From: Medicago truncatula
Taxonomy: Eukaryota; Streptophyta; Magnoliopsida; Fabales; Fabaceae
DNA: 64,000 bases
Assembly (NCBI RefSeq): GCF_003473485.1
Contig: NC_053046.1
Span: 1,498,001 to 1,562,000, forward strand
Reading direction: 5' to 3'
Below, in pieces: positions 1,135 through 62,885 of the stretch (within the stretch, counting starts at the first letter, position 1; each line of letters begins with the position of its first letter). The translations under genes and the position numbers were made by a program. The notes below the pieces were generated by a model. The model was not told where the DNA came from and searched no databases. It saw only the letters and a program-made list of their open reading frames with translations.

Positions 1135-3370
1135 ATGGTGAGTGAAGGAGCGTTAAAGTTCTTGAGGAAGAACTTTATTTTCTATCATGGTTCTATCCGT
1201 CTTTATGGACTAGTTTCTACGATTGTACGTAGAGAATACTCGCCTTACAACAATAAAATAGATATTCACAAGAATCATAGGGCAGGGCAGAAGGCCCTGC
1301 AATCATCTTGGCCATAGGAACTGCAAATCCACCAAATTGTGTTGAACAAAGCACATATCCTGATTTCTATACTTCAGAATCGCAAATAGCGAGCACAAGA
1401 CGCAACTCAGAGAGAAATTTCAGCGCATTTGTAAGTATTCTTTTAATCTATTAGTATTATTTTTAGATACTTTCCATTAACATTTATTTTCGATCTCTAG
1501 TATTCTTTTAATCTCTAGTTAAAATCTATATGAATAGGCAAAACCATTTCTGAATTTGTAAGATGTTGATCAATATATATATTTTGTTAAGCTTTCTGTC
1601 ACACTGCATGAGTTAGCACGTTAAGTGTTTATATGACAGTTGATCATGATGGGTATTTTTGGTGGTTATAAAAGCTAGACTATGCAGCTTTATAATACCA
1701 TGGTGGTTCAGGTCCAATTTTACTCAGTTTCGATTTTATAAGCGATTTAACTTGAAATTCATATCCAAAAATGTGAGATCAAATCATTATACGAGTTAAA
1801 ACGTGATTTTAACACCTTGAACTTTGGTAATAGTTTCTTGATGAAGCTTGAACTTTGGTTCCCATTTCCTTATCGTTAGGTAACGATCAGACAAAAGTTA
1901 ACATACTTCTATTTAAGTCTTCATTCTCTTGAAATTTGACATAGAAGAAATCATCAATAATTAGACACAATCATATATTTTATTTATTATTTTATATTTT
2001 TGTCTTAAGAAACCTGCTAGTTATAAAAAAACAAATTTATTTAAAGACAAATCGTTAAGTTAGGTAGAATAAGAGTTTGAATTTTGACTGAAGCAATTAC
2101 TAGTCATACTTTACTTACGTTTAAACTCCAGATTTTTAGGCCATCTTCTCATGAAAACGGGAGGGTTAAGACAAAAAGATGTAAAAAAAATTAAATACAG
2201 AAAACAAATATATGTTTAGCTCATAAAAAAATATCATTGTTTTAGAAGTCACTTGTGATTATAATTTTTCCTACTATATCGATAATAAATATTGCATTAC
2301 AAGATCTTATTATATGATTGATTTTGGTATTGCCAAAGATTTTGTTATACTAATGTCAATTATTTATAATTACTTTAGGTGAAAAATCAATGATCAAGAG
2401 AAGATACATGTACCAAACAGAAGCTATTTTGAAAGAGAATCCTAATTTTTGCACTTATATGACACCTTCTTTGGATGCTAGGCAAGACATGGTGGTGCGA
2501 GACGTGCCTAGGCTAGGAAATGAGGCTGCAGTGAAAGCTATAAAAGAATAGGGCCAACCAAAGTCAAAGATTACACACTTAATATTTTGCACCATGAGTG
2601 GTATAGGCATGCCTGGTGCCGATTACCAACTCACAAAACTCTTAGGTCTTTGCCCGGATGTGAAACGGTATATGATATACCAACAAGGATGCTTTGCAGG
2701 GGGCACTGTTCTACGTTAGGCCAAGGACTTGGCTGAGAACAATAAAGATGCTCTTGTGTTGGTAATATGTTCTGAAGTCACTACATCACTATTTTGTGGC
2801 CCTAATGAAACTGACATGAGCAACCTTGTTGGACAAGCATTATTTGGTGATGGAGCTGTTGTAGTCATTGTTGGCTCCGATCCGATATCAAAAATTGAGA
2901 AACCTCTCTTTGAGCTTGTTTGGACTGCACAAACAATAGCTCTAGATAGTGAAGAAGCAATTAGCGGCCAACTTCGTGAAGTTGGACTAACATTTAATCT
3001 TCGTAAAGATGTCCCTGAAATTATCTCAAAGAACATCGATAAAGAACTAGTTAAGGCATTCCAACCATTAGGCATCTCTGATTACAATGCAATTTTTTGG
3101 ATTGTCCACCCAGGCGGACCTGCAATTTTGGACCATGTTGAACAAAAGTTAGCTTTGAAACCGGAAAAGATGAAGGCCACTAGGGAAGTACTTAGTGAAT
3201 ATGGTAACATGTCAAGTGCTTGTGTATTGTTTATATTGGATGAAATGAGAAAGAGATCAGCTCAAGAGGGACTTGAGACCACAGGAGAAGGACTTAAATG
3301 GGGAGTGTTGTTCGGCTTTGGACCTGGACTTACCATTGAAACTGTTGTTCTCCATAGTATGGTTATATGA
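1135..3370 (+). pseudogene. chalcone synthase pseudogene with rewritten exon 1
   Basis: This is a two-exon CHS copy that has died. Exon 1 starts with the usual ATG GTG AGT G at 1135, but roughly 130 bp of unrelated DNA (about 1145-1278) replaces the first dozen codons. CHS sequence resumes near 1279 with a 5-nt duplication that shifts the frame, and a GTAAGT donor follows at 1431. Exon 2 (2379-3370) is still exactly 992 bp, like the intact copies. It carries two in-frame nonsense codons: TAG at 2549-2551 in place of a conserved Trp, and TAG at 2717-2719 in place of a Leu. The codons for Cys164, Phe215, His303 and Asn336 are still present. The text resembles the diverged copy at 12.6 kb (for example [17 protein letters not shown]) more than canonical CHS. 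An uninterrupted reading frame from 2729 to 3370 remains but lacks the catalytic Cys region. Confidence 0.9.
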
Positions 3371-7404: not shown

Positions 7405-8868
7405 ATGGTGAGTGTATCTGAAATTCGCAAGGCTCAAAGGGCAGAAGGTCCTGCAACCATATTGGCCATTGGCACTGCAAATCCAGCAAACTGTGTTGAA
7501 CAAAGCACATATCCTGATTTTTACTTTAAAATCACAAATAGCGAACACAAAACTGAGCTCAAAGAAAAATTTCAACGCATGTGTAAGTATGCTATTATTT
7601 ATGTTGTAACCTTTGAGTATGTAAAAACTTTGATCAGAAGGGTACAGCATACATTGTGTATGTCCAACAATTTTTTTAACAAATAGGAGTATTTTTTTTA
7701 AGGCAACAAATAGCAGTATTATTCACCACTAAGTAGCGGTGCAGACATATAACTATAGTCTATAACATTTAACAATGAAAATTATGTGCATTATGAACAT
7801 ATTATTATGTGATTAATTAGTTTGGTATTATCCCAAAACTGTTGTACTGATAAATGTTATTTCTTTATAACTTCAGGTGACAAATCCATGATCAAAAGAA
7901 GATACATGTATCTAACAGAGGAGATTTTAAAAGAGAATCCTAATGTTTGTGAATACATGGCACCTTCATTGGATGCTAGACAAGACATGGTGGTGGTAGA
8001 AGTACCTAGACTAGGGAAGGAGGCTGCAGTGAAGGCTATAAAAGAATGGGGTCAACCAAAGTCAAAGATTACTCACTTAATCGTTTGCACCACAAGCGGT
8101 GTAGACATGCCTGGGGCCGATTATCAACTCACTAAACTCTTAGGTCTTCGTCCATATGTAAAAAGATACATGATGTACCAGCAAGGTTGTTTTGCAGGTG
8201 GCACGGTACTTCGTTTGGCTAAGGATTTGGCTGAGAACAACAAAGGTGCTCGTGTGTTAGTTGTTTGTTCTGAAGTCACTGCAGTCACATTTCGTGGTCC
8301 CAGTGATACACACTTGGACAGTCTTGTTGGACAAGCACTATTTGGAGATGGAGCAGCTGCACTTATTGTTGGGTCTGATCCGGTACCAGAAATTGAAAAA
8401 CCTATATTTGAGATGATTTGGACAGCACAAACAATTGCTCCTGATAGTGAAGGTGCCATTGATGGTCATCTTCGTGAAGCTGGGTTAACATTTCACCTTC
8501 TTAAAGATGTTCCTGGGATTGTGTCAAAAAATATAAATAAAGCATTAGTTGAGGCTTTCCAACCATTGGGAATCTCTGATTACAACTCAATCTTTTGGAT
8601 TGCACACCCTGGTGGACCTGCAATTTTAGACCAAGTAGAGCAAAAGTTAGCCTTAAAGCCCGAAAAGATGAGAGCCACACGGGAGGTGCTAAGTGAATAT
8701 GGAAATATGTCAAGTGCATGTGTATTGTTTATCTTGGATGAAATGAGAAAGAAATCAACTCAAAATGGTTTGAAGACAACCGGAGAAGGGCATGAATGGG
8801 GTGTGCTATTCGGCTTTGGACCAGGACTTACCATTGAGACTGTTGTCTTGCGCAGTGTAGCTATATAA
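7405..8868 (+). CDS. CHS: chalcone synthase (canonical, intact)
   Basis: Type III polyketide synthase. It condenses p-coumaroyl-CoA with three malonyl-CoA to naringenin chalcone, the first committed step of flavonoid and isoflavonoid synthesis. It is a homodimer acting on the cytosolic face of the ER. Exons are 7405-7582 (178 bp) and 7877-8868 (992 bp), with a 294-bp intron. The intron splits the Cys60 codon (T|GT) with a GTAAGT donor and a CAG acceptor, the conserved CHS intron position. The product is 389 aa, the standard length. The catalytic residues Cys164 (QQGCFAGG), His303 (IAHPGG) and Asn336 (EYGNMSS), the gatekeepers Phe215 and Phe265, Thr132, Thr197, Gly256, Ser338 and the GFGPG loop (372-376) are all present. 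It differs from the 20.2 kb copy at eleven residues. It is the only copy here whose promoter keeps an intact CACGTG. Confidence 0.97.
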
Positions 8869-11039: not shown

Positions 11040-11990
11040 AAACAGTTGGACAAACATTATTTGGAGATGGAGCTCATGCGCTCATTGTTGGTTCTAACCG
11101 AATACAAGAAATTGAAAAAGTTATATTTTTTATGGCATGGACTATATAAACAATTGCTCCACGCAATGAAGGTGGCCTTCACTTCGTGAAGTTGGGCTAA
11201 CATTCATGTTCGTGGGATTTTCTCAATGAATATTGATAAAGCATTAACTGAAGCATTCCAACTAGGGGTGTTCGCGGTCCGGTTTGGATCAGTTTTGAGG
11301 TAAAATGTCAACCGATCCGAAATAAATATCACATGTGGTTCGGTTCGGTTTGGATGAGTATTCTAAAAAAATCCAAACCGAACCGATCCAAATATATGCG
11401 GTTTAATTTGGATCGGTTTTTGGACATCCAAAATGCAAAATATATTTTTTTAGTTACTCTTTTTTGAAGAATATAATTTTTTTTATTAATATTAATATTA
11501 CACAAACACGGTGAAATAATAGGTTTGATGCAAAATATATTAAGAAGTTAAAATTATTGTATGAAAATTATCAATTATTTTTTAAACATATGTAGTCATA
11601 ATAATATAGATTAAATTAGTGCAATATATATGATTAAAATTTAACAAGCAACATAATAATGCAATATATAATACTAATAAAAGAATATATAAGTATTAAT
11701 ATTTATTTTTTCGGTTCGGTTCTGTTTAATTCGGTTTTGAAAAGGTGATCCGAAACCCGATCCGATCTTAGCGGTTTTTACAAAACAATATCCAAACACA
11801 TCCAAATATATTCGGTTTTTTACAATTTTCGATTTTTTTGGATCGATTTGCGGTTTTATTTTGGATTTGAACCCCCCTAATTCCAACCATTAAACATCTT
11901 CAATTACAACCCAATCTTCTGGATTGCTCATCCGAGTGGACCTGCAATTATAGATCAAGTTGAGCACAAGTTAGGCTTAAAATATGAAAA
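11040..11990 (+). pseudogene. chalcone synthase relic (middle of exon 2), split by a transposon
   Basis: Only the central part of CHS exon 2 survives. The left piece, 11040-11262, corresponds roughly to residues 208-288 (the VGQ-LFGDGA region through KAL-EAFQ). The right piece, 11880-11990, corresponds to about residues 288-323 and includes the FWIAHP-GPA segment with the His303 codon. Small deletions have broken the frame in the left piece. Exon 1, the Cys164 region and the C-terminus are absent. A 617-bp hAT-like element sits between the pieces, inside the Phe-Gln-Pro motif. The relic is a host gene fragment that was probably dead before or when the element inserted. Confidence 0.88.
11263..11879. 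mobile_element. non-autonomous hAT-superfamily element inserted in the CHS relic
   Basis: The 617-bp element has short terminal inverted repeats (TAGGGGTGTTC at the left, and the reverse complement TAGGGGGGTTC at the right). It is flanked by a perfect 8-bp duplication ATTCCAAC at 11255-11262 and 11880-11887, the target-site length typical of hAT elements. The interior is rich in CGGTT/GATCC-type subterminal repeats (CGGTTCGGTT, CCGATCCGA) and has no transposase. Confidence 0.88.
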
Positions 11991-12503
11991 ATGAATATCA
12001 CTGTGCCGTAAACCAAAAGGTTTGAGAGTAAAAATGGTCCTCAAAGTTATCATGAGGTTATTTGACATATCTGCCACCCAACTCCAACATGTCACGGACA
12101 CAACCAGAAAGAAGCCATAGTATTTGTTGAGTTACACTTTCAAAAACACTACACCACATTTCTAGGTATAGTCGGTTTTAGATGGCTTATTTGAGGTTGG
12201 AAGTTGGAACTAAAAGTTTAGGAATTCACTAGGGAGACAACACACGAACTCTTAACATCGATTAGAGACAACTCTTTTGGCACATTTAAAGTCTCATATT
12301 ATTTGAGAATCAAGGCAAAAGGATGGTCTATTGTCTATATACAATATCCACACTCAACCCAACGAAATATCCATCAAAGTCCAATATATTGAAAGCTTTC
12401 CATAAATGTCAAAAGTGTTTTAGTCAAACAACGTCGATGTTAAGCTACCGTCCAATTAATATCAACCATGTCCCTTTCCACGATCGAGTTCAAATTGCAC
12501 TAC

Positions 12504-12614: not shown

Positions 12615-15600
12615 ATGGTAACTGTATCTGAAATTCGAAGGGCTCAAAGGGCAGAAGGCCCTACAACTATCTTAGCTATTGGCACTGCAAATCCAACAAA
12701 TTGTATTGAACAAAGCACATATCCTGATCTCTATTTCAGAGTCACAAACAATGAGCACAAGACTGAATTAAAAAAGAAATTCCAGCGCATATGTTAGTAA
12801 AAATTTTCTCTATACTTCCTGTTTAAATTCACTTCTCTAGTACACTTTTTATGTGAATTTGGACTGGTTAATCTGTTTGATCGTTATAAAATTGACGAGT
12901 TTGTTTGCTTTTCTAAAAAGAAAATAAAAAAATAATCATTTAATTTGAAAAACATATCATTTTTAACGATCTTGTTTTGTTTTGTGTTTGCATACCATAA
13001 CGAAAAGGAGGAGACGTCAACCATTTCGTCGTTTAACTTTTACTCCCTCCATATTTTATTATAGATCATTTTGATATTTTCACACATATTAAAAAATATA
13101 GTTAATTTTGTATTGGAAAGAGAAATTATAAATGATTTTACAAGATGGGTTAATGGTGATTTACCCCCTGTAATATAGGTCATTTTTTGTTTTCCCCCCT
13201 GTAAAATATTTTTTTTTATTTACCCCCTGTAAAATATATTTTTTCCTAATAGGTCATAAAAAAATGAAAAATTCTGCAAAAAAAATAATAAAGTCGTTTT
13301 TTTATGACCTATTAGGGGGGGTATTCCAAAAAAATATATTTTACAAGGGGGTAAATCAAAAAAAAAAATTTACAATGGGGAAAACAAAAAATGACCTATG
13401 TTACGGATGGAAAGATTTTTTTTCCATCCGTAACAAATTTTTTATTTAATATTAAGTAATTTTGGCTTCTAGTGGCAATCATGGGTAGGGTAGGGGCGTA
13501 ACGGTTCGGTTTGTATTGGTTTTCAGTCAAAAAAATGTCTGAATCCATGAAATCTTCATCGGTTCAGATTGGTTCGGTTTTTTCTGTTTTTCAAAAAAGA
13601 AAATGAACCAAACTAGTCGGTTTGGATCGGTTCGGTTGATCGGTTTGTTTGAAAATACAATAAAAAAAATCATATTTTCACAAATTTGTGTTTCATCTAT
13701 ACAACATACTCAAATATTTCATAGAACTTTGTTTTCCATATTCTCTGTTTTTCAAACTACTTTTTATAACTAATATGAAAAAACTAAAAAGAGATGGACG
13801 ATCCTGACGGCGGTGAGGAACGATGAGTTAGGGGTGATCGACGACAAGTGTTCTTTTTTTGCAAAAACGAATTAGAGTGTGAGTGATGAGATGAAATGAT
13901 GATGGGAGAAAGTGAATGTATTAAGGAGTATTTTAGGTTGGACTTCAATTTTGAGCTTAATCATAAGTGTGTGCGAGAAGGGATAATATTACTAAAATGG
14001 GGAGTCATGTTAGCATCGGTTCGGTTCATCGGTTTATTGGATCTCAAAATAAAATACTGAGAACCAAACTTAACTACATCGGTTTAGGTTGGTTCAGTTC
14101 GGTTTTGAACCGAACCAAACAAGGTCGGATATTTTCTCAGTTTGATTCGGTTTGGATTTTCGGTTTCATCGGTTTTGTCCGAATTTTCGTTGGTTTGTTT
14201 CGTATCATAGAGTATTTCCCTATCCCTTATAATGATATGAGAAAAAGAAACTAAAATAATAGAAAGAAGATAGAATAATAAATGGGCAAGGGTATGGTAA
14301 GAAAAAAAAATCATTAATGATGCATTGGTATTGTTAAACGACATATAAAAAAATCAAAACATTTTTTTCTTTCAAAATGACTTATAATAAAATACGTACT
14401 ACCTTTTCTTTTTTGAAGAAGAATAAATCATCTTTATTTTTATTTTCAGAATACTTTAGCTTCAATTCTTATTAATTTTATACTATGTTTTCTTAAAGAA
14501 AATAAATAAATTGAATTTCACAAATGTGAATCTGAAATTTAAATTACGTACTAAATTAATCATAGGTTTTGTTATATATACATATTATTTTTGTAATTAT
14601 AAATGTTTTTTTTGAAGTGTAATTATAAATGTTTATCCCACATTTCTACTTGTTTATGTGACTCAATCACATTCAAATATTTCATTTGTCATTTTATATA
14701 TTTTTTTACCTCAAACCTGATAATATAAGAAAACAAATACAATACAGTTAACAAATAACATTATTTTTTAAGTCATTGTGACGTTAATTTTGCCTACTAT
14801 ATCAATAGAGAAATATTGCATTACAAGACTATTTTTATTTTTCCCTCAAGAAAAAAAGACTATTTTTATTTTATGTGATTTAGCTTTGGACTTTGGTATT
14901 GCCAAAATATTGTTGTACTTATATGCCATTTCTTTATAACTCCTTTAGGTGATAAATCTATGATTAGGAAGAGACATGTGTACTTAACAGAAGAGATTTT
15001 GAAAGATAATCCAAATTTTTGCTTCGATAAGACACCTTCTTTGGATGCTAGGCAAGACATGATGGCGGTAGAGATACCTAGACTAGGGAAGGAGGCTGCA
15101 GTGAAGGCTATCGAAGAATGGGGTCAACCGAAGTCAAATATTACACATTTAATTTTTTGCACCTATAGTGGTGTAGACATGCCTGGTGCGGATTACCAAC
15201 TAACAAAACTCTTAGGTCTTAACCCATATGTGAAAAGGTACATGATGTACCAACTAGGGTGTTATGCAGGTGGAACAGTACTTCGTTTGGCGAAGGACTT
15301 AGCTGAGAATAACAAAGGTGCTCGTGTGTTGGTTGTTTGTTCTGAAATCACTGCAATCTCATTTTGTGGACCTAGTAATACTCACCTACACAAACTTGTT
15401 GGACAAGCAATATTTGGAGATGGAGCTGCGGCAGTCATTGTTGGCTCTGACCTAGTACCTGAAATTGAGAAACCTTTATTTGAGTTAGTTTGGACTGCAC
15501 AAACAATTGCTTCTGATAGTGAAGGAGCTATTTGTGGTCAACTTCGTGAAGTTGGGCTAACATATAATATTCGTAAGGATGTCTCTGAGATTGTCTCAAA

Positions 15601-15940
15601 GAATATTGATAAAGTACTAGTTGAGGCATTTCAACCATTAGGAATCTCTGATTATAACTCAATCTTTTGGATTGCTCATCCGGGTGGTCCTGCAATTCTA
15701 GATCAAATTGAGCAAAAGTTAGGCTTGAAAGCTGAAAAGTTGAGGGTCGTTAGGGAAGTGCTTAGTGAATATGGTAATATGTCTAGTGCATCTGTATTGT
15801 TCATCTTGAATGAGATGAGAAGGAAATCGACTCAAGATCGACTTAAGACCACAGGTGAAGGACAAGAATGGGGTGTATTGTTAAGCTTTGGACCTGGACT
15901 TACCATTGAAACTGTTGTTTTGCATAGTATAGTTATATAA
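12615..15940 (+). CDS. chalcone synthase-like type III polyketide synthase, diverged active site
   Basis: Two exons, 12615-12792 (178 bp) and 14949-15940 (992 bp), give a full-length 389-aa product with no stops. The exon sizes match canonical CHS exactly. The 2156-bp intron is about seven times longer than in the sister genes and is filled with MITE and hAT-like DNA; the donor is GTTAGT instead of GTAAGT. The catalytic Cys164, His303 and Asn336 and gatekeeper Phe215 are kept, as are Gly256 and Ser338. Several pocket or near-pocket residues change: Thr132 to Tyr, Gln162 to Leu, Phe165 to Tyr, Thr197 to Ser, Phe265 to Tyr, Phe371 to Leu and Gly372 to Ser. Thr132, Thr197 and Phe265 are positions known to steer substrate choice and cyclisation in this family. 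It may make a product other than naringenin chalcone, or be a slowly decaying copy. Length and frame retention favour function. Confidence 0.85.
13146..13412. mobile_element. foldback element (long inverted repeats) in the CHS-like intron
   Basis: Two arms of about 110 bp are reverse complements: 13158-13268 and 13298-13405. The left arm contains three phrases reading TTTACCCCCTGTAA or close to it, plus two TAGGTCAT-type words; the right arm holds their complements. The loop is about 30 bp. No coding capacity. It resembles Mutator-like MITEs, but no target duplication is clear. Confidence 0.65.
13490..14220. mobile_element. hAT-like non-autonomous element, diverged
   Basis: The block begins TAGGGGCGTAACGGTTCGG and is filled with CGGTTCGGTT and GGTTTGGATCGGTT repeats, denser at both ends, like the hAT element at 11.26 kb. 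The right end near 14215 is poorly matched and no 8-bp duplication was found. There is no transposase. Confidence 0.45.
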
Positions 15941-20166: not shown

Positions 20167-21675
20167 ATGGTGAGTGTATCTGAAATTCGCAAGGCTCAGA
20201 GAGCAGAAGGTCCTGCAACCATTTTGGCCATTGGCACTGCAAATCCACCAAATTGTGTTGAACAAAGCACATATCCTGATTTCTACTTTAGAATCACAAA
20301 CAGTGAACACAAAACTGAACTCAAAGAGAAATTTCAACGCATGTGTAAGTGTTTTTTCATATTTTATCACTACATTTCTAGGTAATAAAATCAATGTTCT
20401 TTTTTTTATAAATATACATGGACAAGTACATTCTTGATATATTACCTCAGTTCATTTACTTATGGTTTATTTTTGGATCATATTATATACCTATTGGCTA
20501 TTGCATCTTTGAATCATATTGTATACGGTGCAAATATCATTGTTTGTAAAAGACATTGACAATATTAAACTTGCCTGTCACATGAAAAAAAAATTATTAG
20601 CACTAGGAGACATTTTAGATGCCATTGATTTCGTATCACCCAAATTTGTTGAACTAATATCATCTCTTCATAATTACCTTCAGGTGATAAATCTATGATT
20701 AAGAGAAGATACATGTACCTAACAGAGGAGATTTTAAAAGAGAATCCCAGTGTTTGTGAATACATGGCACCTTCATTGGATGCTAGGCAAGACATGGTGG
20801 TGGTAGAGGTACCTAGACTAGGAAAGGAGGCTGCCGTAAAAGCTATAAAAGAATGGGGTCAGCCAAAGTCAAAGATTACTCACTTAATTGTTTGCACCAC
20901 AAGTGGTGTAGACATGCCTGGAGCTGATTACCAACTCACCAAACTCTTAGGTCTTCGCCCATATGTGAAGAGGTACATGATGTACCAGCAAGGATGTTTT
21001 GCAGGTGGGACGGTGCTTCGTTTGGCCAAGGACTTGGCTGAGAACAACAAAGGTGCCCGTGTGTTGGTTGTCTGTTCCGAAGTCACTGCAGTCACATTTC
21101 GCGGCCCTAGTGATACTCACTTGGACAGCCTTGTTGGACAAGCTCTATTTGGAGATGGAGCTGCTGCACTAATTGTTGGTTCAGATCCAATACCAGAAAT
21201 TGAGAAACCTATATTTGAAATGGTTTGGACTGCACAAACAATCGCGCCTGATAGCGAAGGAGCCATTGACGGTCACCTTCGTGAAGCTGGACTAACATTT
21301 CACCTTCTTAAAGATGTTCCTGAAATTGTTTCAAAGAACATCAATAAAGCATTGGTTGATGCTTTCCAACCATTAGGAGTTTCTGACTACAACTCAATCT
21401 TCTGGATTGCACACCCTGGTGGCCCTGCAATTTTAGATCAAGTAGAGCAAAAGTTAGCCTTAAAGCCTGAAAAGATGAAAGCCACTAGAGAAGTGCTTAG
21501 TGAATATGGAAATATGTCAAGTGCATGTGTTTTGTTTATCTTAGATGAAATGAGAAAGAAATCAGCTCAAGATGGATTGAAGACTACCGGAGAAGGACAT
21601 GAATGGGGTGTGTTATTTGGCTTTGGACCGGGACTTACTATTGAAACTGTTGTTTTGCGTAGTGTTGCTATATGA
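20167..21675 (+). CDS. CHS: chalcone synthase (canonical, intact)
   Basis: A second intact naringenin-chalcone synthase. Exons are 20167-20344 and 20684-21675 (178 and 992 bp), with a 339-bp intron (GTAAGT donor, CAG acceptor) splitting the Cys60 codon. The product is 389 aa. Cys164, Phe215, Phe265, His303, Asn336, Thr132, Thr197, Gly256 and Ser338 are all canonical, as is the GFGPG loop. Eleven substitutions separate it from the 7.4 kb copy, all conservative or on the surface (for example Ala28Pro, Asn82Ser, Gly273Glu, Thr354Ala), or about 97% identity. The stop is followed by GATGCTTAAT, as in the sister copies, showing that the 3' UTR start was duplicated too. Its promoter lacks the G-box, so expression may differ from the first copy; this is inference. 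Confidence 0.97.
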
Positions 21676-24820: not shown

Positions 24821-24827
24821 CTTTCAG

Positions 24828-25798
24828 GTGATAAATCGATGATCTAAGAGGAGATACATGTATATTACAGAAGAGATTTTGAAAGAGAATCCCAATGTTT
24901 GTGCTTATACGGCACCATCATTGGATGCTAGGCAAGACATGGTGGTTGTAAAGGTACCTAGGCTAGGAAAAGAGGTTGCAGTGAAGGCTATAAAAGAATG
25001 GGGCCAGCCAAAATCAAAGATTACACATTTAATCTTTTGCACCACAAGTGGTGTTGATATGTCTGGAGCTCATTATCAACTTACCAAACTTTTAGGTCTT
25101 CACCCATATGTAAAAAGGTACATGATGTACCAACAAAGGTGTTTTGCAGGTGGCACTGTGCTTCATTTGGCAAAGGATTTGGCTGAAAATAACCAAGATG
25201 CTCGTGTGTTGGTTGTTTGTTCTAAAGTCATTGCAGTCACATTTTGTGGCCCTGGTGATACTCATTTGGACAGTCTTGTTGGACAAGCATTATTTGGAGA
25301 TGGAGCTGCTGCACTCATTGTTGGTACTGACCCTGTACCAGAAATTGAGAAATCTATATTTGAGATGGTTTGGACTGCACAAACAATTGCTCCAAATAGT
25401 GAAGGTGCCATTGACGGTCACCTTCGTGAAGTTGGACTAACATTTCGTCTTCTTAAAGATGTCTCTGTGACTGTCTCAAAAACATTGATTAAGCACTGAT
25501 TGAGGCATTTCAACCATTAAACATCTCTGATTACAACTCAATATTTTGGATTGCTCACCCAGATGGAGCCGCAATTATTGACCAAGTTGAGCAAAAATTA
25601 GCCTTAAAACCTGAAAGATGAAGGCAATTCTTAGTGAATATGGTAATATGTCAAGTGCATGTGTATTGTTCATCTTAGACGAGATGAGAAAGAAATCAGC
25701 TCAAGAGGGAATTAAGACCATTGGTGAAGGACTTGAATGGGGGCTTTGGACCTAGACTTACCATTGAAACAGTTGTTCTTCGCAGTGTAGCCATATAA
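24828..25798 (+). pseudogene. chalcone synthase pseudogene, exon 2 only
   Basis: It begins at a CTTTCAG acceptor and runs to the TAA at 25796-25798, 971 bp against the normal 992. A one-base insertion near 24845 creates TAA within the first codons. The frame from 24858 to about 25480 then reads well as CHS residues 70-276. It carries odd changes: Gly163 to Arg beside the catalytic Cys164, Gly138 to Ser, Asp141 to His and Ser190-adjacent Glu to Lys. A one-base deletion near 25485 and further short deletions near 25618 and 25742 break the C-terminal third. No exon 1 is visible in the 3 kb upstream. It descends from the canonical, not the diverged, subfamily. Confidence 0.92.
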
Positions 25799-32344: not shown

Positions 32345-35300
32345 ATGGCCGCGGAGAAACTCCGTGATTTATCTCAACCCATTGACGTCCCTTTGCTCGA
32401 TGCTACTGTTGCTGCCTTCTATGGCACCGGATCTAAAGAACAGGTTTATCTCCATTGCTTGTTCTTCTATTTCACTGTTCAACTTCATTCTTCATTGATT
32501 TGGTTTGGTTTAGTTTGAGTTGTGTTTTCGATTTCATCACTTTTTAGTGCTGTTCAGTGTTTGAAAGTGATGAAACGTTAATGAAATTTTATGTGTTAGG
32601 GTTTAGGGTTTAGTACTGTTAAATTCTGTGTTAATTAACGACTATGAGGATTAAGCTCCAAGGAGATTATTTTGATTTGTTATTTTAACTGTGAATTTGT
32701 TTTGATGTATTTAATTATAATCTTTTTTGGGTTGTATTGTTTCGAATTCGAAGAAATTAGTGGTTTTTACTGAGAAAGAGTTGCGAAATTAAGTTAGGGA
32801 AGTATGAATTATGTATAAAATTTGATATTTTTATTTAATTTTCTGCTTATATGGTCTTGTTTGTGTTTTTAATTTAATTTATAGTTTAATTATGATTTTA
32901 GTCCCGTCAATTATAGTGCGCTTTTTTTATTTTATTTGCCGGTAAGTTTTTTTATTTGGTTTCGGTCCATGCAAATTAAAAAAATGTTGTTTTTAATCCC
33001 CAATGTCAGCTTATTCGGCCATGCGACATGATTTTATTGTGCCACGAATGATGTCAGGATCAAAAACAACATTTTTTTAATTTGATGTACTGAATCTAAT
33101 AAAAAAACCTATTAATTGCAGAGACTAAAATCATGTTTAAACCTTAAATTTAATTACTTGAATCTTATTGGTGACGGTTTTTTATGTTCTAAACGTAATG
33201 CAGAGAACTGCTGCTGACCAGATTTTGCGGGAATTGCAAAATAATCCAGACATGTGGCTACAAGTCATGCATATTTTACAGAACACTCAAAATCTAAATA
33301 CCAAGTTCTTTGCTTTGCAGGTTAGTTTTTTAGCTATGTTTATGCTCGAGAACCCTACTCCACCCTGAAAGCAAATGTACCTTATTTTGCTCAAGTAATA
33401 CATGAGTTGAGATTGTAATCATATTGTTAGATAATGATTACCAATGTTTTAAATCATGGTTGCAACATGGTACTTGATATTGCATAGAATTACAATCGTC
33501 GTCCAACTGCTCAGGTCTTCGAACCTCGACAGTTTGACATTGTGGATTTGCGGTCACAATTGTTGTTGCAATCTTTATTTTTAATAAACCTTGCAAATGT
33601 ATATAGAGTAATGAATGAAATGGTTTATGTTTGAAAACGGCGATACAGAGAGAGGACAGAAAGGAGAAGAGAGAAAAGGGTTAGGGTTGTGCAAAAAACC
33701 CAAATCGCCCTTCAAATGGTTCAAATTTTAAGGTCTGAATCGTGACACTGGAGCGGGAACGTGGGAACCGAACAACGCGAACCGTGACCCCGCTCTCCCA
33801 CCTGGAGTGGCTGCAAACCAGAAGTGGGCTGGGATTCACATTCCCGTTGCAGTTTTTCCCTTAGATGCTCTGCTCCTCCAGGATCCCGCCGGGATTGACT
33901 ACCTAGAATGAAAAAAACTCAAAAAAAAGAAGAATACCACAACCAGTGTGGGACTCGTGCGTTTATGAGGGTGTACTGTGTGCAGATGTGCCACAACCAG
34001 GATCCCGCCGGGATTGACTATCTAAAGTTTTTATTTTATCCCGCCCCCCTATTTTTATAATATTTGACCCCGCTGCTCTAATTTTTATTCATTGCAAATT
34101 CTACCCCGCCCTTTCCCTTTATGTGACCGCATTTCATAAAATCAAACAACCCTGTTCCATCAAACAACCTTTCTCGACGGACCAGTCTCTGTTTATTTGA
34201 TCTGGCCCACAGTTGGATGCATCATGGGCCTGCCTTTAAGAACTTTGTTTTCTTTTTCTGCTTTGTTGTCTGAATTAGTTCAGTTTGGTTTATTCTTCAT
34301 CTTGCAGTAAACATGGATATTTGGTAAATAATTGCTTTGTTAGATAAAGAAAAAGATTTTCCACAATAAATATCCCAGTTAATACTTTATACATTGAGTA
34401 ATCATCTGAGTGTGTCGGCTCCTCCACATGCTCCAACACAACTGACGTGTGATGCCCGGTAACTTCCCTGTGATCTCATGGTGAACATGGAGGGGGAGAT
34501 TTCAGAGTCCTATATATGGGATCAGAAGCAATCTTTAATACTAATTTGTGTATTGCTTTGTTGGATAAAACTATAGATTTCTGTACTTCTGTATCATATT
34601 TTCATTTGCTTGTTTGCACTTTACTTGGTTTGTTTTTCATCTTTACCTTTGCATCCAACATGGTTGTCAGTGCTTCCGTAGTAATAATGATTATTAAATG
34701 TCCTACAAGTTCTTCACTTTGTTACCATAATTCTATTCTTAACTGCATTTCTCAGTATATATTCTTTCTATGTTTGTTAACACAGGTGCTAGAGGGTGTG
34801 ATTAAATATAGATGGAACGCACTACCGGTTGAGCAGCGAGATGGAATGAAAAATTTCATCTCCGATGTTATTGTACAGGTATCACTCACATGGAGGAAGC
34901 TGATACATGAGCTAGCCCAACTTACTTTGTTGTTGTATCAATGCTTGTATTACGTGTCCTTTATTCCATTATTCACCTATTTTGCACAGCTATCTCGCAA
35001 CGAGGCCTCATTTCGAACGGAGCGATTGTATGTCAACAAACTCAATATTATATTAGTTCAGGTAATATTGACCTTGCATTTTCCTTCTATCATTTAGAGT
35101 GATATTTTCCTGTTATTTCAACCTGTTATTCAGTTCATTTGCTTTCTTTATCTTGTTGAAAGTTATAATTTCTTCAGTTTATTTATGTTTTTACACGGGG
35201 ACTTGGATTTCCTTTTCTTTGCTCTTTAAAAATCAAGATTTGCAAGATTTCTTTGTAATCTTTTCATGTATTGGTAACTACCTAAAAATTTGTAACATTT

Positions 35301-38300
35301 ATATAATGATCTGTATATATCGTTCATATATGCAGATTCTGAAGCATGAGTGGCCTGCGAGATGGCGAAACTTTATTCCTGACCTTGTTTCAGCAGCTAA
35401 GACCAGTGAAACTATTTGTGAGAATTGTATGGCTATATTGAAGGTAAGTTTATCTTCATTTATGTTAAATATATTCCTTTAATCAATGAGTAACATTGTG
35501 AAATGTTCTTTCAGCTTTTGAGTGAAGAGGTTTTTGATTTTTCAAGAGGCGAGATGACTCAGCTGAAGATTAAAGAGCTTAAACAATCATTGAATAGGTA
35601 ACAGTTAATAGCGTTTGTCTATTTTAAAAGAAATCTAACCTAATACTTTTTGGGTGCTATTTCATTTCCCCATACTTTAACCGGGAGATCTGGCAAACTT
35701 TTTTGTTCTAAAGAGGACCCACCATTGAGGTGGTCAACAATGGGCCCTAGGGAAGCCCACATGGGTAGGGGGATGGGGAAAGGGATGGAGTGCATTTCAG
35801 GGATGATGATTTATTTAATGGAAAATGCTTAACAAGTGTTAAGGAACCAAATATAGTAAAACTATCTTGGAATTTACTTTTTTTGTGTCCTAAACAACCG
35901 GTTAGCATGACACATAGCTAAAAACAATCTTCAAGTGTTGGGTTCAATTATTGATATTCTAACTGGTTCTGGCTTTAGATGCTCTAGCTTGTCAGCAGTT
36001 CAATTATTTAATTTAAATTGTCTACGCTTACTCTTTATGGACTACCTATACATTGCTAAGGATTACACATGGTTGTTTGCAGTGAATTTCAGCTCATACA
36101 TGAGTTATGCTTATTCGTGTTATCAGTTTCCCAACGAACTGAGCTGATACGTGCAACACTCTCTACATTGCATGCCTTCTTATCTTGGATTCCCTTGGGC
36201 TATATATTTGAATCACCATTGGTAGGTATACACGTTTGTGTAATTCATATTACACTGCCATGGAGGAAATCTGAGATCTTTTGGTATTTGTGTTAATCAC
36301 AGCTCGAGACATTACTGAAGTTTTTCACAATGCAAGCATATCGGAACCTGACATTGCAATGTTTAACTGAGGTATGGTCCCTCTTCCTAGTGCTTGTGCA
36401 TTTACTTTAAAATTTTAAGACTATCATTCATTTTTTATATTCACAGGTGGCATCGCTTCAATTTGGGAATTTCTATGATGCACAATATGTTAAGATGTAT
36501 AACATATTCATGGTTCAGTTGCAGGTATGGTTAATTTAAATAGCTTTTCATTTTGTTCCACATGCAGATGCTGCACTTTTCTTTTTGTTTATTTGCTTCA
36601 TTGTAGTCATGTATCCGTTTTGTTCTATTCTGATTGTGTAAAACAATTATAATTTTTGTGGCTGATTTTGGGATGATACTATGTTTAATGCATCAGAGCA
36701 TACTCCCACCTACTACAAATATACCTGAGGCATATGCACATGGTTCAAGTGATGAACAGGTGAGTCTTTGCAATTTGCTGAATATAAGAAGCCTGATTTA
36801 CTGAATTGTTTGTGATGTCTAACATTGACTTTTTATTCACATTGTCTGTCCAGGCATTTATACAAAATTTGGCACTGTTCTTCACCTTATTTTTCAAGGT
36901 AGGGTCGCTCTCTCTCCTTTTTTTTTTTTTTTTTTTTCTTTTCCCTTCCTATATGGGATTTTTTCATATGTGTGAGCATACTAGCTTTATTACCGTTTCA
37001 CTATCCATTGCCATGCATATGAGTTAGTTAAAGTAGCTGGCACTTAAGCTTTAACTGATCTGTAACTATTTCAAGTTAGTTATCAGCGTGTGTAGGACAA
37101 GCACCACTGTTAATGCAGGATTAACATGTATATAAACAATTGTTCCTTGATCTCTTTGATCAAGAATTTACACTCAAATACATAAATTTTTGTATTGTTT
37201 TCTATCTGAATTTTCCACTCTAATATCTTACTGTAGTTTTTATGCATTGTCAACGATATCATGCTTGTGGTGGGATATTTTAAAATGGACCCTTATTTTT
37301 ATATCTTATATTGTGGTGCCGAAATTTCCTTTTCCATATGTGTGTAGCACCTCCTCCTCCTCATCTCTTTTGCTTCCATTTATGTTCCCCTTTTTATGTT
37401 CCCCTTTTTTGCTTGATGGCTATTACACTCTATAAACATTTTTACTGTTTATGCAGGTTCACATACGAATTCTAGAATCCACACAAGAGAATATCTCTGC
37501 TTTACTATTGGGTCTTGAATATCTCATCAACATCTCATATGTGGACGATACTGAGGTTTTTAAGGTATGATGTTGTAATAATATGTTTCATTGCTTTGTA
37601 TAGTTAATGATATGAGTACTCGAGCTTAAGTGCTCATTCCTCATGCTTATGTTGATAAAGCTTTCTTCTCTCTTGCCCTCAAAAGCATCCCAACTTTTTA
37701 TCTTGCATGAGTTCTGTATATGCAATATTCATGTATTACTTTAATTTGTAAAAATACCAGGTCTGTCTGGACTACTGGAATACTTTGGTTTCAGAACTTT
37801 TTCAGCCACACCGCAGCTTGGAGAATTCTGCTGCAGCAGCCACAAACATGATGGGATCACAGGTACTCTCTCTAATGATGTGTCAAATCCTTGTTCCTTG
37901 ATGGCTAAAATCCACAATTTCTTTTCTCCCACCAAACACTTTTGTGTAGCACAAAAGGATTCTTTCCATTTGACCTAAAAAAAAAAAAGGATTCTTCCCA
38001 TTTAGCGTACTTGGTATTGTTTTAATATTCACATGGAACATTGAGAGTCAATGCTTATGTAGTGTTGCTGTTCAGCATTATTTGCTTGTAACTTGGCAGG
38101 TAGTTCTGTCATCATCCACCCCCCAATGATGTTTTCTTATCCTTGTTTTCCTATGTAACTCTATTTTCCATCTCTTAATAAATTTCTTCTGTAAAAAATT
38201 AAGTGAACCGTTGCACACAATCTGCCCAGACTGGTTTTTTATTTATTTCCACACTGTTGTAAGGTGAATTTTCAAGATAATTTGGATCAGTAGGTCTTAA

Positions 38301-59869: not shown

Positions 59870-61297
<1,428 letters not shown>

Positions 61298-61538: not shown

Positions 61539-62885
61539 TGTAAGATAATGAAATGCTTGTCTTTCTCATTACTGAATGGAGTGTATATATAAACGAGTGT
61601 AGGTCAACTATATCTAATTATGTTACATCATAATTATAGGGAAATCATTAACACTAATTATAACAAATATTATATTCTATCACACCCTCGCAGTCGAAGC
61701 GGGAGGTTCACGGACGCTTAGACTAGTCCGAAAGTCGTCAAATAGAATACGAGGGAGTCCTTTGGTGAAGAGATGTCTGCAATCTGATGTCTGGAGGGAA
61801 CATGAAGTACGCGTGCCTGACCACCGACTACTTTTTCCCGTACAAAATGAATGTCCATCTCAATATGTTTGGTACGCTGATGCTGCGCAGGATTACCAGA
61901 TAGATAGATGGCACTAACATTGTCACAATATACCAGAGTGGCATGAGGAATGGGAAAATGAAACTCCAGAAGAAGGTTGCGAGTCCAGCAGGATTCAGAG
62001 ACAACATTCGCAACACCTCTATATTCAGCTTCAGCACTAGAACGAGAAAGAGTAGACTGCCTTTTGGAAGACCAAGAGATAAGATTGTCATCGAGAAAAA
62101 CACAGTACCCAGATGTGGAGCGTCTAGTGTCAGGACATCCACCCCAATCAACGTCAGTGTAAGAAATCAACTTAGTAATGGGGATGGTGATAAATGTAGA
62201 CCAAGGTGTATGGTACCCTTTACATAATGGAGAATGTGCTTAAGAGCAACCATGTGTTCTATGTTGGGTGCATGCATGTGAAGACAGATTTTTTAAACTG
62301 AATAGGAGATGTCGGGTCTAGTGAACGTGAGGTACTGTAAAGCTCCTGCAAGACTACGATATAAAGAAGGATCCTCATAAAGTGTATCAGAGGAGGTGCT
62401 GAGTTTCTTCTTGGTATCGACAGGTGTGGCAGAAGGTTTGCAAGATGTCATGCCAGCATGCTCGATGATCTCAGAAGCATAGGTGCTTTGACTAAGAAAA
62501 AGGCCACCAGGATGATGAGATACAACAATACCCAAAACATAACTCAAGGGTCCCAGGTCCTTCATCGCAAATTCAGATGCTAAGAGTGACATAATTGATT
62601 TGTGAAGGGCATGAGAAGAGGTGATAAGTATGATGTCGTCCACATAGAGAAGACTGTAGGCGATGTCAGACTGTTGTTGATATATGAAGAGAGAGTGGTA
62701 TGATGTGCTATGTCGGAAACCGGTGGTGGATACATAGTCAGCAAAACGTTGGTACCATATGCTCTGGGCGCTTGCTTGAGACCATAAAGTGACTTCTTCA
62801 AACGACACACATAATCACTGCACTGAAAAGTGGAATCCATCGAGTTGCTTTTGAAGATCAGTGGGTTTCTTCCTTGATAGACACT
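61539..62885 (-). mobile_element. 3' part of a Copia LTR retrotransposon (fossil)
   Basis: On the - strand the remaining coding text covers the end of the reverse transcriptase (with its YVDD motif) and the RNase H domain typical of plant Copia elements. It is followed by a probable 3' LTR at 61539-61682, which begins TGATAG and ends CTTACA on that strand. The gag, protease and integrase parts and the 5' LTR are missing. The coding part is broken in a few places. It is younger-looking than the element at 48-52 kb and lies between ARF copies 2 and 3. Confidence 0.85.

Follow-up and report, generated by a model that had tools for sequence, protein, structure and literature searches.

The chalcone synthase array and gene D

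The analysed window is a 64,000-nucleotide stretch of Medicago truncatula DNA (contig NC_053046.1; C5:1498001-1562000 in the 430 Mb, 42-contig genome that we searched). It holds an array of chalcone synthase (CHS) copies, labelled A to F and all lying on the same strand. This report concerns one of them, a CHS-like gene with an altered active site that we call gene D; A, B, C, E and F are the other CHS copies in the window. The copies and the parts of gene D are as follows.

1284..3370, + strand: copy A, a pseudogene of the same clade as gene D, with two in-frame stops in exon 2 and a frame break in exon 1
7405..8868, + strand: copy B, an intact canonical CHS, exons 7405-7582 and 7877-8868; 384/389 residues identical to alfalfa CHS2
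11045..12114, + strand: copy C, CHS exon 2 fragments immediately upstream of gene D
12412..12477, + strand: proximal promoter module of gene D, 66 bp homologous to that of copy B
12615..12792, + strand: gene D exon 1, codons 1-59 and the first base of codon 60; open frame, GT donor at 12793
12793..14948, + strand: gene D intron, 2156 bp, phase 1, containing a foldback
14949..15940, + strand: gene D exon 2, from the remainder of the Cys60 codon to the stop; residues 61-389
20167..21675, + strand: copy E, an intact canonical CHS, exons 20167-20344 and 20684-21675; 376/389 residues identical to alfalfa CHS2
24827..25798, + strand: copy F, an exon 2 pseudogene with frameshifts, deletions and one stop

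Gene D spans 12615-15940 on the plus strand. Splicing 12615-12792 to 14949-15940, with a GT donor and an AG acceptor, gave an open frame of 389 codons followed by a stop. This agrees with an earlier note, made from the letters of the window, which had described a full-length CHS-like frame with a junction at 12792/14949. The junction falls inside the Cys60 codon, at precisely the point where B and E, the intact neighbours, are also split, and a phase-1 intron in this codon, bordered by GT and AG, occupies the same position in B, E and 16 intact paralogues outside the window. The protein aligned with alfalfa CHS2 (1bi5) over residues 1-389 without gaps (315/389 identical), so CHS2 numbering is directly usable. 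Both Chal_sti_synt domains were full length (PF00195, E 2.4e-111, residues 5-227; PF02797, E 4.1e-62, residues 238-387). Judged from its sequence, gene D has every feature of a type III polyketide synthase (PKS) that we examined. An AlphaFold2 model of exon 2, for which only three sequences served as input, had a mean pLDDT of 41.2 and was unusable. Searches of viral contigs and GTDB genome contigs for relatives gave 2 and 40 pattern matches to the gene D protein, respectively, none of them confirmed, as is expected since gene D is a plant gene.

The promoter module of gene D aligned locally with that of B with a score of 73, the maximum among 500 single-base shuffles being 32. Within the module, the G-box of B (CACGTG) has shrunk to an ACGT core in gene D. 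The intron contains a foldback resembling a miniature inverted-repeat transposable element, with arms at 13161-13228 and 13346-13413 (68 nt, 85% complementary). The foldback region, 13161-13413, carries CCCCCTGTAA repeats, and a single copy turned up when the window was scanned with part of the foldback. Exon 1 of copy F was not found by tblastn.

Catalytic core and active site

The catalytic residues Cys164, His303 and Asn336 are retained in gene D, together with Phe215 and the CoA residues Lys55, Arg58 and Lys62. Gly256, Ser338, Ser133, Thr194, Met137, Ile254 and Leu263 are also retained, and Gly134, Asp136 and Met137 are the same as in CHS. Relative to CHS2, the replacements include T132Y, Q162L, F165Y, T197S, L214I, F265Y and G372S, and further V98M, V99A, V196I, R199C, D255C, H257Q, L268R and F371L, out of 74 differences in total. 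The earlier note had listed the three catalytic residues as kept and T132Y, T197S, F265Y, Q162L and G372S as changed, correctly in each case. Three of the 12 pocket residues listed in PMC11093982 are altered (T132Y, T197S and F265Y). The positions of interest are the following.

15062..15064, + strand: V98M, codon 98 ATG; Met as in peanut stilbene synthase (STS)
15164..15166, + strand: T132Y, codon 132 TAT
15254..15265, + strand: codons 162-165, LGCY, with Q162L, catalytic Cys164 and F165Y
15359..15361, + strand: T197S, codon 197 TCA
15410..15412, + strand: L214I, codon 214 ATA; Ile as in benzalacetone synthase (BAS) and Cannabis TKS, the adjacent Phe215 kept
15563..15565, + strand: F265Y at the gatekeeper, codon 265 TAT; Tyr as in benzophenone synthase 5uco
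15677..15679, + strand: catalytic His303, kept
15776..15778, + strand: catalytic Asn336, kept
15884..15886, + strand: G372S of the GFGPG loop, codon 372 AGC

The protein was compared with 12 aligned type III PKSs of solved structure, five of them CHSs and seven other enzymes. The tables name the enzymes only, and we take chain 6dxa to be pine CHS, 7bur the soybean enzyme, 4yjy the rice enzyme and 5uco HaBPS. Tyr132 occurred in none of the 12, and none of Tyr132, Leu162, Tyr165, Ile214 and Tyr265 was found in the 18 other intact paralogues modelled (16 outside the window, B and E), which bears out the earlier remark that a tyrosine at position 132 is unusual. Leu162 and Ile214 were present in two of the seven non-CHS enzymes (BAS and Cannabis TKS) and in none of the five CHSs. 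Among the 12, Tyr165 was seen in BAS, TKS and PCS (it is also present in AmQNS), and Met98 in peanut STS only. G372S is not unique to gene D, being shared with the intact paralogues L022 and L026, and this weakens it as a change specific to gene D. At sites that are invariant in the five CHSs and free in the seven other PKSs, gene D was changed at 38 of 182, compared with 0 of 182 in B and 2 of 182 in E.

Paralogues and phylogenetic position

The genome search recovered two extra exon 2 loci just upstream of the window and other matches on contigs C1-C4, C7 and C8. Of 25 loci taken from outside the window, 17 received coding sequence models (16 intact and one, L025, disrupted); L024 and L027-L033, which were broken, distant or matchless, were left without one. 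A codon set of 15 sequences was assembled that omitted L015, L017, L019, L020, L021 and L023, all close to retained rows, and the disrupted L025.

Gene D formed a clade with copy A and with an intact sister gene near 30.2 Mb on another contig (L022, G000:C2:30207800-30211600). The clade received SH-aLRT/ultrafast bootstrap support of 98.7/100 in the codon tree and 99.5/100 in the nucleotide tree, and Thr132 is gone in all three members, being replaced by Tyr in D, Ile in L022 and Met in A. Thus the phylogenetic check proposed in the earlier note placed gene D in a well-supported group whose members all lack Thr132. Across the 15 sequences codon 132 is TAT in D, ATA in L022, ATG in A, TCA in L026 and ACN in the other 11. 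L022 shares with gene D R199C, V196I, D255C, H257Q, F371L and G372S as well as the loss of Thr132. However, it differs in having Ile132 and P304S, in keeping CHS-like Thr197, Phe265, Gln162 and Phe165, and in being identical to D at only 314 of 389 residues. Its intron is 1423 bp long, and its upstream region retains the CACGTG G-box. In copy A the first 11 codons were unmatched, and the pocket changes are T132M and T197L.

The order within the clade differed by tree. D grouped with L022 in the codon tree (82.1/90), but with A in the nucleotide tree (0.4/61). A 14-row protein tree that included solved enzymes also grouped D with A (bootstrap/SH-aLRT 97/92) and nested this pair within a group containing CHS2, B, E and F but neither soybean CHS1 nor peanut STS (95/89). 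A 17-row tree left the fork between D and A open and put peanut STS with them in one open group of seven (87/90). In a five-sequence set, alternative arrangements of D, A and F were worse by 14.3 and 15.3 log-likelihood units (lnL).

On the 15-sequence codon tree the clade ancestor was reconstructed with Ile132 (0.88) and Thr197 (0.98), so the change at position 132 probably predates D's own branch. T197S, F265Y, Q162L, F165Y, L214I and V98M were all placed on the D branch alone, after the change at 132.

Segment-wise distances over eight 48-codon segments (codons 1-384) gave no sign of recent gene conversion of D with B or E, differences per segment ranging from 12 to 25% of sites against B and from 12 to 21% against E. 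Elsewhere in the genome, four near-alike canonical CHS copies lie in tandem (L018-L021, G000:C1:47766600-47786300) with equal exon 2 profile scores, a likeness that perhaps reflects recent duplication or conversion. A further intact CHS-like gene, L026 (G000:C3:42476400-42479000), has five of the 12 pocket residues altered (T132S, T194R, T197N, G256A and F265L) and changes at only 2 of 96 family-invariant sites. From its sequence it is perhaps a cleaner candidate for neofunctionalisation than gene D.

Selection and decay

Omega (dN/dS) was estimated with a branch model (GY94, F3x4). With five sequences, omega was 0.277 for D and 0.024-0.037 for B, E and their stem; fixing D at 1 was worse by 11.4 lnL, and an approximate profile with most parameters fixed gave a range of about 0.18-0.44 for D. 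The 15-sequence set gave 0.271 for D, 0.191 for L022, 0.251 for L026, 0.305 for the D-L022 branch, 1.06 for the clade stem and 0.039 for the background. Here omega = 1 was worse by 17.1 lnL for D and by 15.9 for L022, and omega equal to the background was worse by 11.95 lnL for the clade stem and by 12.46 for L022. Neutral evolution of gene D along its entire branch is rejected, and the dN/dS near 1 that the earlier note had named as contrary to its proposal was not observed. The gene D branch is under purifying selection, although constraint on D is about seven times weaker than in the background; its intact sister lies on another chromosome-sized contig.

There were 93 family-invariant positions when columns with gaps were excluded and 96 when they were admitted, and D was changed at 7 or 8 of them, respectively. 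On the wider definition the counts were 8/96 in D, 3/75 in A, 4/96 in L022, 10/74 in F and 0/96 in both B and E, with 4/100 in peanut STS and 9/103 in TKS. As a share of all changes, pseudogene F (10/41) lay far above D (8/74).

Neutral evolution was simulated from copy B, which is not the true ancestor. With 54 replacements, the number inferred for the D branch, the probability of no stop was 0.040, that of at most eight hits at invariant sites 0.058, and the joint probability 0.002. Of the 73 replacements in D relative to B, 34 are residues known at that position among the 12 solved PKSs, whereas 1000 neutral runs averaged 13.6 and never exceeded 24; the corresponding counts were 31/63 in A and 13/42 in F. 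The changes in D are unlike random decay, since its family-known replacements exceed the neutral maximum and the joint neutral probability is low. We conclude from these comparisons that gene D probably encoded a constrained protein for most of its history, with some late relaxation possible. Pseudogene A was apparently a divergent enzyme for some time before its death, because it has pocket changes of its own and few changes at invariant sites.

Interpretation

We put at roughly one half the probability that gene D encodes a working type III PKS, derived from CHS, that does not make chalcone and stops early, at a di- or triketide. An early stop appears the most likely outcome because the bulky residues at position 132 in BAS, in a QNS and in a BPS mutant (described below) go with it. 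The product of gene D would be a catalytically competent homodimer, descended from a CHS copy and belonging to a small clade in which Thr132 has been lost. Its starter, an aromatic CoA ester of coumaroyl, cinnamoyl or benzoyl type, would be loaded on Cys164, and malonyl-CoA would be decarboxylated by Phe215, His303 and Asn336 as in CHS. The side chain of Tyr132, with Tyr265 and with Leu162, Tyr165 and Ile214 nearby, may narrow the coumaroyl and cyclisation pockets. The chain would then be extended once or twice and freed, either as a diketide of the benzalacetone type or as a triketide pyrone, with no Claisen closure to chalcone. We infer the starter, the chain length and the ring closure, and likewise the closing of the coumaroyl pocket by the bulky Tyr132. 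The retained CHS-type promoter module counts in favour of this proposal, and gene D is a good candidate for a new branch of plant chemistry.

Several observations weigh against an early-stopping enzyme of this kind. Changes show no enrichment at the pocket positions (3/12, compared with 71/377 elsewhere, p = 0.71). F215L, the defining replacement of BAS, is absent. Tyr165 is present as well in 9lym, a solved chain that bears the name chalcone synthase. The five-sequence reconstruction gave the A-D ancestor Thr132 (0.73) and Ser197 (0.55), the former at odds with an early change at position 132. The donor of gene D, GTTAGT, is weaker than the GTAAGT of B and E, and its 2156 bp intron compares with 99-615 bp in 15 other intact paralogues outside the window and 1423 bp in L022. 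This donor and the long intron with its foldback speak against expression of the gene. Changes at invariant sites make up a larger share of all changes in D than in peanut STS (4/89). Finally, the omega of D is close to the values for the dead-copy lineages A (0.244) and F (0.230), so omega by itself does not separate D from them. The remodelled pocket proposed in the earlier note, and the reading of gene D as neofunctionalised, stand in part. CHS-specific rules are broken while the core is kept, but the 12-residue list shows no excess of change. The value of omega for D is below 1, but it is close to that of two dead lineages. The suggestion of fewer extensions or an altered closure finds precedents at position 132; however, T197S and F265Y are mild and occur in Senna tora CHS-L (PMC10003783).

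Gene D could instead be a duplicate on which selection has relaxed and which is turning into a pseudogene, still open by luck and perhaps unexpressed, like A and F. We consider this rather unlikely. The nearness of omega to that of the dead copies, the weaker donor, the presence of three dead or fragmentary copies (A, C and F) in the same window and changes at family-invariant sites such as G357R, P248S and P272S all count in its favour. An open frame is also compatible with late decay. A D branch with an omega of 0.03 that turned neutral in its last quarter would carry no stop with a probability of 0.042, and one with an omega of 0.2 that turned neutral in its last tenth with a probability of 0.30. 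Against this, the simulations gave a low joint neutral probability and never reached the number of family-known replacements seen in D, its catalytic, CoA and Phe215 residues are all intact, and an intact sister with an omega of 0.19 is kept on another contig.

Improbable in our view is a stilbene- or resorcinol-type (aldol) enzyme, in which a tetraketide would be hydrolysed off and closed from C2 to C7. V98M gives the residue of peanut STS, where Met98 is thought to contribute to the altered structure of the Area 2 loop (PMC5870536; PMC10742623), V99A is common to pine STS and CUS, and Thr132 is replaced by Ile or Ala in Polygonum and Rheum STS and in apple BIS (PMC5870536), Ile132 being found also in L022. 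Cannabis TKS combines Ala132 with the Leu162, Tyr165 and Ile214 of gene D. However, an aldol switch based on Thr132 is lost in gene D, in which Gly134, Asp136 and Met137 are as in CHS, and Tyr is bulkier than Ile or Ala. A TKS study reports that no universal consensus for predicting the aldol switch was found (PMC7217186). More improbable still is that gene D is an ordinary CHS with altered kinetics and tolerated changes. The gene is nested among canonical CHS paralogues, and Gly256, Ser338, Ser133, Thr194, Phe215, Met137 and Ile254 are kept. But Areas 2 and 4 read TYSGVDM and RKDVSE, in place of the TTSGVDM and LKDVPG that are well conserved in chalcone-forming enzymes (PMC5870536), and changes at CHS-specific sites are frequent in D and rare or absent in B and E.

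A broader possibility, which we regard as rather doubtful, is that gene D and its sister on C2 represent a PKS clade of the Medicago lineage, not described in the papers that we searched, that lost Thr132 and makes a non-flavonoid product, either a di- or triketide or one from a new Tyr132-Tyr265 ring closure. Gene D would then have converged once more on the Leu162, Tyr165 and Ile214 set of BAS and TKS.

Legume flavonoid synthesis begins with chalcone synthase, duplicates of which have given rise to several plant polyketide enzymes. Here several stages can be compared in one genome, namely canonical copies, a clade that first lost Thr132 while its amino acids were changing rapidly, and one member whose pocket has been extensively remodelled, and dead relatives in the same genome serve as controls. 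If gene D makes a product other than chalcone, a new legume metabolite is possible; an inactive gene D would illustrate how a copy in a tandem array slowly decays.

Other features of the window

Exons of an exportin 1 (CRM1) gene, with IBN_N and Xpo1 domains, lie at 34474-35479, and an exon of an ADP-ribosylation factor gene (PF00025) at 60451-60723. A remnant of a copia-type retrotransposon occupies 61721-62814 on the minus strand, with an RVT_2 domain in 62296-62814.

Comparison with known systems

No published description of gene D was found in the open-access papers searched. A search for Tyr132 or T132Y with chalcone synthase gave only work on flavonol synthase, and three motif strings of the protein had no match there. 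The class criteria used below are taken from the papers cited.

Alfalfa CHS2 and copies B and E share with gene D the fold family and the catalytic triad, and B and E also the two exons with the Cys60 intron. Unlike them, gene D has T132Y, T197S, F265Y, Q162L, F165Y, L214I, V98M, D255C, H257Q, L268R, F371L and G372S. From the list of chalcone-forming residues Thr132, Ser133, Thr194, Thr197, Gly256, Phe265 and Ser338 (PMC6274091), it departs at three of seven (T132Y, T197S and F265Y), and it departs from the chalcone-forming consensus of Areas 2 and 4 as well. Nor does it match the CHS signature as given in PMC6278125, which is also altered, including F371L, in GmCHS14.

The BAS of Rheum palmatum (3a5q) resembles gene D in its bulky residue at 132 (Leu in BAS) and in Leu162, Tyr165 and Ile214. 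However, BAS has Leu215 and Ala133, whereas gene D keeps Phe215 and Ser133; the bifunctional PcPKS1 likewise retains Phe215 (PMC6274091). According to the same source, three residues of BAS, Leu132 among them, block the coumaroyl pocket, and replacing this Leu by Thr yields naringenin and lactones in addition to benzalacetone. C. microcarpa QNS, with Met132, Met194 and Tyr197, stops at the diketide (PMC6274091). In HaBPS the substitution T135L, which places a bulky residue at 132, leaves two extensions in place of three and redirects ring closure to lactonisation, giving a triketide pyrone (PMC5713876).

Tyr265 is common to known benzoate-specific enzymes such as HaBPS and BIS (chain 5uco; PMC5713876). 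These have Gly338, and HaBPS Met263, whereas gene D keeps Ser338 and Leu263; of the pair Tyr265 and Gly338 that marks the class in this source, gene D thus has the first but not the second. Cannabis TKS (6gw3) shares the motif YQLGCY, Leu162, Tyr165, Ile214 and Phe215, but has Ala132, Asp192, Met194 and Leu197.

Among legume enzymes, peanut STS (1z1e), a relative of CHS, shares Met98 with gene D, but keeps Thr132, Phe165 and Leu214 and reads VALPGV in place of VDMPGA. The legume STS motifs EDMMIREVPRV and CTTSGVALPGV, as given in PMC10742623, were not matched by gene D, with which they have Met98 alone in common. Senna tora CHS-L, linked to anthraquinones, resembles gene D in its tandem copies and in Asn or Ser for Thr197 and Tyr for Phe265; it has Leu256 and Trp338, whereas gene D keeps Gly256 and Ser338 (PMC10003783). 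By its predicted protein, gene D lacks residues that define CHS, legume STS, BAS (Phe215 being kept) and the benzoate PKSs (Ser338 being kept). It joins legume CHS-like genes with altered pockets or signatures that are already known, namely Senna tora CHS-L, GmCHS14 and peanut STS.

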